Of a stretch of 58,900 nucleotides of DNA, positions 43,587 through 48,720 are shown piece after piece (position 1 is the first letter of the stretch; every line of letters starts with the position of its first letter). Source of the stretch: an uncultured Alphaproteobacteria bacterium (GTDB taxonomy: Bacteria; Pseudomonadota; Alphaproteobacteria; Micropepsales; Micropepsaceae); contig CAILUV010000093.1 in assembly GCA_903837555.1 (NCBI GenBank), positions 1-58,900 on the forward strand, given 5' to 3'. Below the pieces are notes generated by a model. That model was not told the origin of the DNA, did not search any database, and saw only the letters and a program-made list of their open reading frames with translations. The position numbers were made by a program, and so were the translations under genes.

Positions 43587-43898
43587 ATGACTCAACGCCG
43601 AAAAAGAGAGCTGACCGGCACGCTGGAAGTGGATGGTTGGCCGCTGCGCTGGACGCTCAAAAGCGAACAGATCTGGAGCGCCAATGGCGACCATGTTGGC
43701 CTGCGCCTGTCGGTGGAACGCAGCGACGAACAACGCCGCGAGCTGATCCTGGAATATCCGTTTCAGGAGCTGCCGGGCGGCCGCACGGCGCGGCCCGACG
43801 TCAATGTCCACCGCCTGGCCGATGACGTGCGCGCCGCTATCGCGGAAGGCTGGAAGCCCAAATCGCGCGGACGGCCCTTCACACTGATGTGTGACTAA
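43587..43898 (+). CDS. Conserved hypothetical protein
   Basis: 103 residues, family not recognised. Strand-rich: GTLEVDGWPLRWTLKSEQIW, then LRLSVERSDEQRRELILEYP and a C-terminal helix before WKPKSRGRPFTLMCD. It lies 41 bp after the transglutaminase gene on the same strand, so it may be the fourth gene of that operon. Its TAA shares four bases with the stop of the minus-strand fragment that follows. Confidence 0.65.
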   Translation: MTQRRKRELTGTLEVDGWPLRWTLKSEQIWSANGDHVGLRLSVERSDEQRRELILEYPFQELPGGRTARPDVNVHRLADDVRAAIAEGWKPKSRGRPFTLMCD

Positions 43899-44101
43899 AC
43901 CAGTTCGCGGCGTTCCGCGCCCGAAGCGAACACTTCCAGCTCATCCGCCACATCCGGCATCAGGCTTTCCCAGTCCCCGAATTTCCTGGGTGACAGCACG
44001 CGGGTGCTGGCGTACCAGGGATATTCGTTCGTCCCCAGTTGCGGCCAGGTGCGGCCCGCGTTTCGCATATGCGGCAAAGAACGGCGCAAGAATCGTCGCA
44101 T
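43895..44101 (-). pseudogene. Remnant of a TPR-type glycosyltransferase/sulfotransferase C-terminus
   Basis: A 68-codon open frame containing YPWYASTRVLSPRKFGDWESLM, which resembles the C-terminal PWYPSxRLFRQ...GDW block of large TPR glycosyltransferases. The part upstream of it is replaced by an in-frame stop and then the oxygenase array on the opposite strand. It is best read as a truncated relic. A real short protein is possible, because its stop overlaps the neighbour's stop in the same way as several live genes here. Confidence 0.45.
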
Positions 44102-44137: not shown

Positions 44138-44725
44138 ATGACGGAAGAAAATCGCCTTGCCATGCTGACATTCACCGCTTGGGCGGATGCCTTCACGCCC
44201 GCGGAAATCGACCGCATCGTGGCGGATGGCGACAGCCTGATGCCCGAACGGGTTCAGCTTGCGGGCACGGCGCCGGGTGATCATGTAGCGGCGGCGGAAC
44301 GTCTTCGCATCACCCACACCGCCTGGATCGACCGCAACCCCGACACGCTCTGGCTGTTCGCACGCATGCAGGCCGTGGCGCAATCGCTGAACGACCAGAC
44401 CTATCAGTATGACCTGCGCGGCTTCAGCGAGAATTTCCAGTACACCGTCTATCACGGCAATGAAGGCGGCCATTATGACTGGCATGTCGATCACGGGCCG
44501 CTTCCGGCGCCGCGCAAATTGTCGATGACGGTGCAGCTCACCGATCCGTCGCAGTATCAGGGGTGTAACCTGGAATTCTGCGCCGGCGGCAATGTCGAAA
44601 TCGCGCCGCGTGACCGCGGCACGGTGGTGGCGTTTCGGTCTTACGTGCTGCACCGGGTGACGCCGATCACCGCTGGCGTGCGAAAGTCGCTGGTCGTCTG
44701 GACCACCGGGCCGAAGTTTCGCTGA
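44138..44725 (+). CDS. 2OG-Fe(II) oxygenase, array member 1
   Basis: 195 residues, a double-stranded beta-helix dioxygenase of the prolyl-hydroxylase/PKHD type. The iron triad is HxD in DWHVDHG plus the distal His in YVLHRVTPI; the 2OG-binding Arg is in GVRKSLVVW. The N-terminal block FTPAEIDRIVADGDSL is shared with all five members. It has no signal peptide and no other domain. It starts after the TPR remnant and its TGA overlaps the ATG of member 2. The target is unknown; hydroxylation of a protein or small molecule is the likely chemistry. Confidence 0.9.
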   Translation: MTEENRLAMLTFTAWADAFTPAEIDRIVADGDSLMPERVQLAGTAPGDHVAAAERLRITHTAWIDRNPDTLWLFARMQAVAQSLNDQTYQYDLRGFSENFQYTVYHGNEGGHYDWHVDHGPLPAPRKLSMTVQLTDPSQYQGCNLEFCAGGNVEIAPRDRGTVVAFRSYVLHRVTPITAGVRKSLVVWTTGPKFR

Positions 44726-45312
44726 TGAGCCAGGGGAACGGACAATATGGATCGACGCTGCCCTTCGCGGCCTGGGGCGGCGCCTTCACACCCGCCGAGC
44801 TGGACCGCATCGAGGCCTATGGCGATGGCCTGACCACGGCAAAGGCCACGGTCGCTGGCGATGCGCCCCAGGGAAAAGAAGACGACGCGTCGCGCATCTC
44901 GCGCACCGCCTGGATCGCGCGCAATGCCGAGACCGACTGGTTCTATGTCCGGATGGAGCGGATCGCCCGCACCCTGAACGACCAGTTGTGGCAATTCTCG
45001 ATCAGCGGTTTCTCCGAACTGTTCCAGTATACAATCTATAACGGGCAGGAGCAGGCCTATTTCGACTGGCATGTCGATCAGGGCTTTGTGGAAGTGCCGC
45101 GCAAACTGTCCTTTTCGCTGCAGCTTTCGCATGGTTCGCAATATGAGGGTTGCGACCTGCAGTTCCATGCGGGCAGACTGGTGGAAACCGCGCCAAGGGA
45201 GCGAGGCGTGGTGATTGCGTTTCCGTCTTATGTTCTGCATCGCGTGACGCCGATTACCAGCGGCACGCGAAAGTCGGTGGTGATCTGGATTACAGGGCCG
45301 AAGTTCAAGTGA
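44725..45312 (+). CDS. 2OG-Fe(II) oxygenase, array member 2
   Basis: 195 residues. All catalytic residues are kept: FDWHVDQG (HxD), YVLHRVTPI (distal His) and GTRKSVVIW (Arg). It differs from its siblings by EQAYFDWH where the others have a GGH[YF]DWH sequence, placing Tyr/Phe next to the active site. Its C-terminus, ITGPKFK, matches member 1 (TTGPKFR), suggesting these two are the most recent duplicates. Its start overlaps the member 1 stop (TGATG). Confidence 0.9.
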   Translation: MSQGNGQYGSTLPFAAWGGAFTPAELDRIEAYGDGLTTAKATVAGDAPQGKEDDASRISRTAWIARNAETDWFYVRMERIARTLNDQLWQFSISGFSELFQYTIYNGQEQAYFDWHVDQGFVEVPRKLSFSLQLSHGSQYEGCDLQFHAGRLVETAPRERGVVIAFPSYVLHRVTPITSGTRKSVVIWITGPKFK

Positions 45313-45353
45313 AGGGCGTTGCATAGAATAAGAACAGCAGCTGGGGGGCATGC

Positions 45354-45953
45354 ATGTCTTTTTTCAATCCCACATCGGCGCCGGTCATCATGCCGGGCGG
45401 ACTGGTGGCATGGGAAAATCTTTTTACGGCGGCCGAGCTGGATGCGGTCGAACGCTATGGCGACAGCCTCACGCAGGAACGGGCGGAGCTGCAGGCCAAG
45501 GCTTCGGGGCGCGACAGCATTCGCATCACGCGGGTGGCCTGGTTTCCGCGCAACCCGCAGACCGAAAGTTTCTATGCCCGCATGGAAGAAGTGGTGCTGC
45601 GGATCAATGCGCAGTTCTTTCGGTACGACCTGTCGGGCGTAGTGACATTTCAGTACGCTTTCTATGACGGCACCGAAGGCGGCCACTTTGATTGGCACAA
45701 GGATTATGGCCGCGATTATGGCGCCCCCGATCAGGAACCTCGCAAATTGTCGCTAAGCGTACAGTTGAGCGATGGCGCGAATTATCAGGGCTGCAATTTG
45801 GAAGTTCGCGGCGGAAATGAGACCGACATCGCGCCACGCTCGCGCGGCGCGGTCGTGGCGTTCCCGTCTTACGTCCTGCATCGCGTGACACCGATAACAT
45901 CGGGTGTGCGCAAATCACTCGTTGTCTGGGCGGTGGGACCGGAGTTCAAATAG
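45354..45953 (+). CDS. 2OG-Fe(II) oxygenase, array member 3
   Basis: 199 residues. The active site is FDWHKDYG, YVLHRVTPI and GVRKSLVVW. The loop after HxD is four or more residues longer than in the other copies (RDYGAPDQEPRKLS), which would reshape the substrate entrance. It shares the WHKD variant and the FF[RY]Y segment with member 4. It lies 41 bp after member 2 with GGGGGG-rich sequence upstream, and may carry its own ribosome-binding site. Confidence 0.9.
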   Translation: MSFFNPTSAPVIMPGGLVAWENLFTAAELDAVERYGDSLTQERAELQAKASGRDSIRITRVAWFPRNPQTESFYARMEEVVLRINAQFFRYDLSGVVTFQYAFYDGTEGGHFDWHKDYGRDYGAPDQEPRKLSLSVQLSDGANYQGCNLEVRGGNETDIAPRSRGAVVAFPSYVLHRVTPITSGVRKSLVVWAVGPEFK

Positions 45954-45984
45954 GCCTGCAAAGCCTGCGCCGGAAGCTCGTCAA

Positions 45985-46569
45985 ATGTTATTATCGCGTC
46001 CCGCGACTGTACCCGCGTCTGCGGGTGAGCATGTGGTGTGGGAAGGAGCTTTCACCAATGCCGAACTCGACCGGATCGAGGCGTATGGCGACAGCCTGGC
46101 CAAAAGCAAGGCCGATCTGTCGGGTTATCGCGCGCAATACGATTCCATCCGCGTCACCCAGGTTGCCTGGATCGAGCGCAATCCCGACACCGCCTGGCTG
46201 TATCACCGGGTGGAGGAAATCGTGCTGCGGCTGAACGAGCAGTTCTTCCGCTACGAACTGTACGCCCTGTCGGAAAGCTTTCAGTACACCGTCTATGACG
46301 GCGCCAAAGGGGGGCACTTCGATTGGCACAAGGATCACGGCAACGCGCAGGAAGCACCGCGCAAGATTTCGCTCAGCCTGCAACTGTCGGATGAAGATGC
46401 CTATCGCGGTTGCGATCTGGAAATTCATGGCGACTGGCGGCAGGCCGCGCCCCGCAAGCGCGGAACACTGATCGCTTTCCCGTCATTTATGCTGCATCGT
46501 GTAACCCCTATCGAGGCCGGCATCCGCAAGTCGCTGGTGATCTGGGCCGCAGGTCCGGAGTTTCGATGA
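45985..46569 (+). CDS. 2OG-Fe(II) oxygenase, array member 4
   Basis: 194 residues. The active site is FDWHKDHG, FMLHRVTPI and GIRKSLVIW. The N-terminal block FTNAELDRIEAYGDSL is almost identical to that of member 2 (FTPAELDRIEAYGDGL). The start chosen is the Met of MLLSRPATV, 31 bp after member 3; an earlier Met lies inside member 3. Its TGA overlaps the ATG of member 5, so the two are coupled. Confidence 0.9.
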   Translation: MLLSRPATVPASAGEHVVWEGAFTNAELDRIEAYGDSLAKSKADLSGYRAQYDSIRVTQVAWIERNPDTAWLYHRVEEIVLRLNEQFFRYELYALSESFQYTVYDGAKGGHFDWHKDHGNAQEAPRKISLSLQLSDEDAYRGCDLEIHGDWRQAAPRKRGTLIAFPSFMLHRVTPIEAGIRKSLVIWAAGPEFR

Positions 46570-47138
46570 CTGTGTCAGCACCATTGGTTCAGGGGCCTTT
46601 CGTGGCCTGGGAAGGCGCGCTTTCACCCTCTGAAGTGGATGCGATTGTCACCTATGGCGATGCGCTGCTGCACAGCAAGGGCACGATCGAAGGCAAGAGC
46701 GATACGATCGAGACGGTGCGGATCACCGATCTGGCCTGGATCGAACACGGCCCCGAGACACAGAAATTCTATGAGCGGCTCGCCCAGATCGTGCAGCGGC
46801 TCAATACCGACTTCTACCGCTTCGACCTGACGGGATTGGAGAACCTGCAATACACCATCTATGACGGGCGGCAGGGCGGCCATTACGACTGGCACATCGA
46901 TTTCGGGCACAAGAATTTCAAGCCGCGCAAGATTTCCCTCAGCGTCCAGCTCAGTGATCCGGCCGATTACGAGGGCTGCGAGCTGCAGTTCCAGATCGAC
47001 AGCCTACCGGTCACCGCCCCGCGCAGCCGCGGCACCGTGATCGCCTTTCCGTCCTTCTTCCTGCACCGGGTCACCCCGGTGACCCGGGGGGTGCGAAAGT
47101 CGCTGGTGCTCTGGGCCACGGGGCCTGATTTCCGCTAA
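46566..47138 (+). CDS. 2OG-Fe(II) oxygenase, array member 5
   Basis: 190 residues, the most divergent copy. The active site is still complete: YDWHIDFG, FFLHRVTPV and GVRKSLVLW. The N-terminal block is LSPSEVDAIVTYGDAL. The start at 46566 lies inside the stop of member 4 (ATGA). The array ends here, 49 bp before gpmI. The retention of the triad and arginine in all five copies argues for active, diversified enzymes rather than decaying duplicates. Confidence 0.9.
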   Translation: MTVSAPLVQGPFVAWEGALSPSEVDAIVTYGDALLHSKGTIEGKSDTIETVRITDLAWIEHGPETQKFYERLAQIVQRLNTDFYRFDLTGLENLQYTIYDGRQGGHYDWHIDFGHKNFKPRKISLSVQLSDPADYEGCELQFQIDSLPVTAPRSRGTVIAFPSFFLHRVTPVTRGVRKSLVLWATGPDFR

Positions 47139-47187: not shown

Positions 47188-48720
47188 ATGATCCGCAAAC
47201 GCCCCGCTTTGCTCTGCATTCTCGACGGCTGGGGCTGGCGCGCCGACCCCGCCCCGGACAATGCCATCGCCCAGGGTTCCACACCCAACTACACCCGGCT
47301 CCTGGCCACCTGTCCGCATGCCCTGCTGGAAACCAGCGGCAATGCCGTGGGCCTGCCCAAGGGCCAGATGGGCAATTCCGAAGTCGGTCACATGAATATC
47401 GGCGCCGGCCGCATCGTGGCGCAGGATCTGCCGCGCATCGACGTCGCCATCGAAGATGGCAGCCTGGCGCGGCGCCCCGTGCTGCTCGCGCTGATTGATA
47501 AAGCCAAAAGCGCCCAGCGCGCGGTCCACATCATGGGCCTGATGTCGCCCGGCGGCGTGCATTGCCATCAGGATCACATGGCCGCGCTGGTGAAGATCGC
47601 CAGCGCGGCGGGCGTGCCGGTGTTCGTGCATGCCTTTCTGGACGGACGCGACACCCCGCCCAAAAGCGCCGGCGGCTTCGTTGCCAAGTTCCTGTCCGAC
47701 ATTGCCGGTCTGGCGGGCGTTCGTCTGGCGACCTTGTCAGGACGCTTCTACGCCATGGACCGCGACCAGCGCTGGGACCGGGTGGAAAAATGTACCAACG
47801 CCATCATCGATGCCTCGGCGCGCCGGTTTGACGATGCGGGCGCGGCCATCGAGTCGTCCTACGCCGAAGACATTACCGACGAATTTCTGGTTCCCTGCGT
47901 GCTGGGCGACTATGCGGGGGTGGAAGATGGCGACGTGTTGCTGTTCGCCAATTTCCGCGCTGATCGCGCGCGCGAGATTTCCGCGGCCTTGCTGGACAAG
48001 GGCTTTGACGGTTTTTCCCGCGCGAGAGTGCCGCAGTTCGGCGCGGCGGCGGGGCTGACCGAATATTCCGAACATCTCAAGACGCTGATGGCTTCGGTGT
48101 TCCCGCCCGAAGACGTGCGCGAAACGCTGGGCGAGGTGGTGTCGCGGCAGGGGCTGAAGCAGTTGCGCATCGCCGAGACCGAGAAATACGCACATGTCAC
48201 CTTCTTTCTGAATGGCGGGCGCGAGCAGGTGTTCGACGGCGAGGACCGCATCCTGGTGCCCAGCCCCAAGGTGGCGACCTACGACCACAAGCCGGAAATG
48301 AGCGCCTATGAAGTCACCGAAAAACTGGAAGAGGCGATTGCCGGCGGCAAATACGATCTGATCGTCTGCAACTACGCCAATCCCGACATGGTCGGACATA
48401 CCGGCATCATGAGCGCGGCCATCAAGGCGGTGGACACGATCGATGTGTGTCTGGGCCGGTTGATCACGGCTTTGGATAAAGCGGGCGGCGTGATGCTGCT
48501 CACCGCCGATCACGGCAATATCGAAATGATGGTCGATCCCGCCAGCGCCGAGCCTTACACGGCGCACACCACGCTGGACGTGCCGGTGATCGCGTATGGC
48601 GTGGACGGCACGCTCACCAACGGACGGCTGGCCGATGTCGCGCCGACGCTGCTGGATATGATGGGCCTCTCCCAGCCCGCGGCGATGAGCGGGCATTCCT
48701 TGCTGGTCAAAGGCGCGTGA
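47188..48720 (+). CDS. gpmI: 2,3-bisphosphoglycerate-independent phosphoglycerate mutase
   Basis: About 510 residues of the alkaline-phosphatase superfamily, manganese-dependent. ILDGWGWR at the N-terminus supplies a metal Asp, GNSEVGHMNIGAGR carries the catalytic Ser, DGRDTPPKSA follows, and the C-terminal metal site is LTADHGNIEMM and YTAHT. It interconverts 3- and 2-phosphoglycerate. The start is the Met of MIRKRPALL. Its stop overlaps the start of the envC gene. Confidence 0.95.
   Translation: MIRKRPALLCILDGWGWRADPAPDNAIAQGSTPNYTRLLATCPHALLETSGNAVGLPKGQMGNSEVGHMNIGAGRIVAQDLPRIDVAIEDGSLARRPVLLALIDKAKSAQRAVHIMGLMSPGGVHCHQDHMAALVKIASAAGVPVFVHAFLDGRDTPPKSAGGFVAKFLSDIAGLAGVRLATLSGRFYAMDRDQRWDRVEKCTNAIIDASARRFDDAGAAIESSYAEDITDEFLVPCVLGDYAGVEDGDVLLFANFRADRAREISAALLDKGFDGFSRARVPQFGAAAGLTEYSEHLKTLMASVFPPEDVRETLGEVVSRQGLKQLRIAETEKYAHVTFFLNGGREQVFDGEDRILVPSPKVATYDHKPEMSAYEVTEKLEEAIAGGKYDLIVCNYANPDMVGHTGIMSAAIKAVDTIDVCLGRLITALDKAGGVMLLTADHGNIEMMVDPASAEPYTAHTTLDVPVIAYGVDGTLTNGRLADVAPTLLDMMGLSQPAAMSGHSLLVKGA

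Follow-up and report, generated by a model that had tools for sequence, protein, structure and literature searches.

Why would a bacterium keep five consecutive genes for one type of oxygenase? Few cases of protein hydroxylation are known in bacteria, and with five conserved paralogues side by side one can test directly how enzymes with the prolyl 4-hydroxylase (P4H) fold divide their targets. The question is raised by a 58,900-nucleotide stretch of DNA from an uncultured alphaproteobacterium of the Micropepsaceae (GenBank assembly GCA_903837555.1, contig CAILUV010000093.1, positions 1 to 58,900; hereafter the window), in which five intact open reading frames (ORFs) for oxygenases dependent on 2-oxoglutarate (2OG) and Fe(II) lie head to tail on the + strand at 44138-47138. 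We find that this array is real, maintained and lineage-specific. Our proposal, in which we place about even confidence, is that its genes encode P4H-type protein hydroxylases that came from phage-related stock and act on host targets, the set having changed by birth and death of copies within this lineage. The array consists of the following genes, with orthologues named by genome:

44138..44725, + strand: oxygenase copy 1, 195 residues, motif WHVD; orthologues in G083, G074 and G060.
44725..45312, + strand: oxygenase copy 2, 195 residues, WHVD with QAYF before the motif, TGATG overlap with copy 1; orthologue in G083.
45354..45953, + strand: oxygenase copy 3, 199 residues, WHKD, longer loop after HxD; orthologues in G083, G075 and G074.
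45985..46569, + strand: oxygenase copy 4, 194 residues, WHKD; orthologues in G083, G075 and G074.
46566..47138, + strand: oxygenase copy 5, 190 residues, WHID, ATGA overlap with copy 4; orthologues in G083 and G060.

All five proteins matched PF13640 (2OG-FeII_Oxy_3) at 37.9-49.5 bits, above the gathering cut-off of 27, and all carried its hallmark HxD...H iron triad and 2OG arginine, confirming five tandem paralogues with intact active sites as described in an earlier reading made from the DNA letters alone (the sequence-only reading). From copy 1 to copy 5 the HxD motif reads HVD, HVD, HKD, HKD and HID; the distal histidine, the 2OG arginine and an upstream tyrosine are present in 5/5 copies, and these H-D-H-R-Y residues were retained in 57/57 rows of at least 150 residues from the window's genus, a count that excludes fragments and the diverged copy L235 of genome G054. 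Copies 2-5 share 49-54% of their residues with copy 1, and the alignment of the five has a mean column identity of 65% and 54 invariant columns. The array is likely an operon, as had been suggested: copies 1 and 2 overlap by TGATG and copies 4 and 5 by ATGA (the start codons of copies 4 and 5 are a choice, the gene caller having picked later ones), and the other two gaps are 41 and 31 bp by eye, but promoter- and terminator-like sites showed no excess over shuffled sequence.

In both of our trees, which exclude 8 non-viral fragments of fewer than 150 residues, the genus copies, with one exception in the large tree, formed a single clade. In the large tree it comprised 57 genus rows and one viral-contig row (support 99), and in a smaller tree of 61 rows chosen from 151 it comprised 19 chosen rows (support 99/98). 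The viral-contig row, L100, sits within the clade, and its contig (63% GC) looks bacterial; the diverged G054 copy falls outside, with a viral row. This single clade rules out five separate recruits and shows no grouping of the copies with unrelated single-copy families. The five window copies define five groups, each with a G083 orthologue and variously also orthologues from G074, G075 and G060 (one to three sister species), and the groups had already separated before at least one sister species split off. Copy 3 clusters with dispersed copies from other genus members. The ratio of nonsynonymous to synonymous substitution (dN/dS), estimated by maximum likelihood, was 0.078-0.229 in 22/22 pairs from the five window groups and 0.061-0.204 in 15 further family pairs, with purifying selection in 37/37 overall (0.061-0.229); these ratios are rough, several synonymous distances being above 1, and Nei-Gojobori values were higher (0.074-0.347), while YN00 gave no result in 14/37 pairs. 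Values far below 1 rule out relaxed selection. The sequence-only reading had located the variation among the copies in the loop after HxD, the residues just before the motif and the residue between H and D. The longer loop proved to be fixed across all four rows of group 3 and the preceding Ala-Tyr in both rows of group 2, but the residue between H and D varies inside group 4 (K and R). The PHD2 structure 5la9, according to its title, has residues 281 and 314 changed to Cys and is cross-linked to substrate. Position 314 we take to be the residue between H and D, which fits the earlier idea that this residue faces the substrate.

The history of the array can be read at its site in related genomes, between the following neighbours:

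47188..48720, + strand: gpmI-like gene, the constant right neighbour of the array site, named from sequence without a family search.
43895..44068, - strand: remnant of a tetratricopeptide repeat (TPR)/glycosyltransferase-like gene, named by eye; its similarity to longer copies is confined to about the last 54 residues.

Matches to the oxygenase family were found in 21/69 genomes of the genus, 15 of those 21 with at least two, some of them broken. In 17/21 of these family-bearing genomes at least one copy (range 1-5) lay directly upstream of gpmI; in G047 a 66-residue ORF call separates the two. Counting copies of at least 150 residues, the site holds five in G000 and G083, three in G074 and G060, two in G075, G069, G081, G077, G025, G072 and G043, and one in G039, G078, G076, G058, G034 and G047, with contig ends cutting the loci of G060, G034 and G047; G074, G076 and G058 each carry a broken copy too. 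The site was empty of the family in 14/14 genomes sampled from the 20 genus members that have gpmI without a copy beside it. Since copies stand upstream of gpmI in most family-bearing genomes and every copy-free site sampled is empty, the array grew at one site; this agrees, as do the single clade, the shared orthologue groups and the low dN/dS, with the earlier suggestion of in-place duplication, retention and diversification. Several genomes have a second, dispersed oxygenase locus beside genes read as glutamate dehydrogenase and sucCD.

The same survey bears on whether the copies divide labour at all. The extra copies could instead supply dosage or be passing duplicates in a birth-and-death family, all acting on one target, and site copy numbers of 1 to 5 among related species, like the broken copies in three of them, are what such turnover would leave. 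Each of the five groups is nevertheless under purifying selection in separate species, some differences between groups are fixed near the HxD motif, and copies 2-5 share only 49-54% identity with copy 1, so we regard this explanation as improbable.

The neighbouring genes offered no pointer to a scaffold on which successive steps might be carried out, as the sequence-only reading had also envisaged, the flanks being either housekeeping by eye or present at empty sites too. Left of the 14 empty sites lay a flagellar-like block in 12 (with a major facilitator superfamily (MFS)-like gene in 6) and a transglutaminase/c9 block in 2; the latter block is also present in the window. A flagellar target was considered, as flgI- and flgJ-like genes lie near the array in several genomes, and was rejected as incidental because 12/14 oxygenase-free sites carry the same flagellar-like block. 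Two smaller points concern the flanks: the TPR/glycosyltransferase-like gene is likewise shorter in G083 and G074 than in G076, and gpmI of G039, a genome with one oxygenase copy, falls into two matches (G039:C19:54079-55680), owing to a frameshift or an assembly error.

Multi-copy arrays recur outside the window's genus. At E 1e-20, 24/96 genomes of the bacterial family matched (an order-level search gave the same 96 genomes), another genus of the family contributing three diverged single copies. In the class sample 29/385 genomes matched, 27 of them outside the genus; of these 27, 23 had one copy, two had a tandem pair, and two (G309 and G473, of one genus) had three in tandem and one elsewhere, all of these counts being lower bounds, as the class search scored at most 8 candidates per genome. 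The expectation that such enzymes usually occur singly was thus borne out, and the G309/G473 array forms its own clade in the tree. A three-gene tandem array of these oxygenases, separate from that of the window, was seen in another alphaproteobacterial family (L208, L209), with copies orthologous one to one in two genomes. The window's own assembly (2.46 Mb, 101 contigs) contains the five array copies and one remote match elsewhere (38% over 78 residues), a 221-residue ORF at L234:7469-8131.

What the enzymes might act on was approached through family and fold. An AlphaFold2 model of copy 5, the copy used for all modelling and structure comparison, was built from an alignment of 74 sequences with a predicted local distance difference test score of 91.7 and a predicted TM score of 0.88. 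The top Foldseek match was the Pseudomonas putida P4H-EF-Tu structure 4iw3 (E 6.9e-11), and VIA Z scores gave near ties between the P. putida prolyl hydroxylase PPHD (19.7), PHD2 (19.6), an algal P4H (19.5), the collagen P4H of PBCV-1 (18.9) and PiuC (18.3). The P4H double-stranded beta-helix fold spans the whole chain (Z 19.5-19.7 over 177-186 residues). PPHD (4iw3, 4j25), the closest structure at Z 19.7 over 182 residues, is only 19% identical to the window copy; PPHD hydroxylates EF-Tu (PMC7864055). The PBCV-1 enzyme vCPH (5c5t) is a viral P4H of the same fold, but it belongs to an algal virus and is 22% identical. A defence role was set aside, PADLOC yielding only a generic 2OG domain model.

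Two other roles were weighed. A role in iron or siderophore uptake of the PiuC/YbiX type is raised by the best NCBIfam and single-sequence PDB matches, which were YbiX/PiuC (PKHD-type; 9ghl, 3dkq). However, the best scores against the YbiX/PiuC models NF003972-NF003975 were 47-62 bits (maximum 61.6), missing all four cut-offs (143-399 bits), the array proteins have 190-199 residues against profiles of 221-227, no TonB receptor was recognised at the site by eye, and PPHD and PHD2 fit the copy 5 model as well or better; we consider this role very unlikely. Alternatively, free amino acids or another small molecule could be hydroxylated, with the copies making different isomers or intermediates. 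A PDB search with the 74-sequence profile matched PiuC, prolyl 4-hydroxylases, PHD2 and PPHD, and also, weakly, ectoine hydroxylase (E 0.004) and leucine hydroxylase (E 0.12), and in the bacterium nothing links the family to a protein substrate. Against this, protein prolyl hydroxylases are matched far more strongly in both sequence and structure, and 6/14 empty sites also have the MFS transporter-like gene that lies near the array, leaving the small-molecule explanation with a modest share of our confidence.

The nearest relatives outside bacteria of the genus were, in the trees, proteins on contigs that we call viral because IMG/VR lists them. All five copies matched the PHROG 61 profile over most of the protein (E 4.4e-35 to 6e-22; PHROGs have no curated cut-off), and 352 phage records contain a relative of copy 5, Synechococcus phages accounting for 272 of these. 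A resemblance of PHROG 61 proteins to EGLN3 has been noted (PMC12774648). These phage oxygenases, from cyanophages and viral contigs, are thus alike in profile and form the nearest tree group, but the viral copies often lie by fibre genes and the bacterial ones are chromosomal. Among few conserved differences the clearest is in a YxG[CG]xL turn, with Cys in 49/57 bacterial genus rows versus Gly in 20/20 sister viral rows.

The neighbourhoods of the viral genes gave a lead that the sequence-only reading had not anticipated. Viral scans took the best 80 loci among the matches listed, and their counts therefore do not amount to a census. Dereplication at 80% oxygenase identity reduced the loci from 80 to 44 for the large tree and from 160 to 96 for the locus survey. 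A collagen-like ORF lay at most 3 kb upstream of the oxygenase in 17/20 loci of the sister clade, and one was found in 43/96 dereplicated viral loci versus 0/80 phage NrdA control loci of about the same total length, a partial control, as NrdA is probably in another genome region. In loci of at least 10 kb it stood just upstream in 19/43, against a null mean of 6.3 and a maximum of 14 (2000 draws). Prolines occupied the Y position of Gly-X-Y in 636/830 cases in near regions versus 72/764 in other collagen-like regions; by region, proline was commoner at Y than at X in 26/31 near regions versus 2/13 others, and in 24/25 within 1.6 kb. The near limits (3 kb, 1.6 kb) were set after the loci had been inspected, regions with fewer than 5 prolines or a tie are left out, and related fibres are not independent, making the near/far p-values too good. 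On L291 and L296 the adjacent collagen-like region is Y-rich and a farther one on the same contig X-rich, and the L302 fibre matched both PF01391 (3.1e-16) and a PHROG tail fibre.

P4Hs act on X-Pro-Gly, Y being their site in Gly-X-Y; a Bacillus P4H cited in a review hydroxylates peptides and prefers the Y position (PMC8968730). By their gene neighbourhoods the viral relatives are probable phage tail-fibre modifiers. The pairing with Y-position proline bears on a view from 2012 that bacteria and viruses lack prolyl hydroxylases for Y-position collagen proline and show no Y preference (PMC3368898). A passing remark in a 2022 paper connects P4H genes of viruses with the collagen of tail fibres and describes their use as 'cryptic' (PMC9301287), and the open-licence literature, covered in part by title and abstract start, yielded no test of the fibre-oxygenase pairing. 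The viral link hints at what this enzyme type does, and could be tested by mass spectrometry of phage particles.

We therefore return to the proposal of a birth-and-death set of host-directed protein hydroxylases. A phage-related family gene would have become established upstream of gpmI in an ancestral member of the genus, and tandem duplication would have amplified it, while copies were also dispersed and lost. The most likely reaction of each enzyme is hydroxylation, with 2OG, O2 and Fe(II), of a residue in host proteins or peptides, proline being the likeliest residue, and since the copies differ partly round the active-site mouth they probably serve different sites. We infer the activity, the proline target, a protein rather than a small-molecule substrate, and the division of labour. 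Several observations weigh against this proposal. Beyond the fold shared with PiuC and the weak small-molecule hydroxylase matches, the genus lies nested among viral rows in the trees, but a constraint holding the viral rows together was not rejected (approximately unbiased test, p 0.26); with stricter settings a repeat scan detected collagen-like genes in only 10/20 sister-clade loci; and five near fibres have proline mainly at X. PF01391 at E 1e-5 was detected in 0/21 family-bearing genus genomes, several of them incomplete, versus 10/48 others, a collagen-like ORF in 0/85 bacterial loci, and in bacteria outside the genus no gene was consistently linked to the family by eye. No match to the protein of a phage fibre turned up in 30 genomes, in a weak search that had no positive control.

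Canonical collagen is accordingly unsupported as the bacterial target in the genus. Since family-bearing genus genomes yielded no collagen-like protein, the bacterial substrate is something else, and the viral role cannot be transferred as it stands; the bacterial and viral enzymes share family and probably chemistry, not substrate. A more specific history, which we hold only tentatively, is that the array is a domesticated phage fibre-hydroxylation set: many freshwater and other environmental phages would carry a dedicated prolyl hydroxylase for collagen-like tail fibres, and one such enzyme would have been captured, amplified to five and redirected to the lineage's own proteins.

Further features of the viral loci were recorded. 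Y-proline collagen-like ORFs lie at most 3 kb upstream of P4H-fold oxygenases in L101, L103, L112, L295, L302, L308, L311 and others, and some viral gene rows hold further 2OG oxygenases (PF13759, a second PF13640). A PF11397 GlcNAc-transferase-like gene lies two genes downstream of the oxygenase at L165:6043-6990, with homologues in L171 and L176. Hydroxyproline glycosylation was considered and rejected: no collagen-like ORF was detected in L165 or L176, and that of L171 is downstream, with proline mainly at X by eye. In cyanophage S-SCSM1 (L374:8205-28841) several annotated 2OG oxygenases lie near an O-fucosyltransferase and a long glycosyltransferase block.

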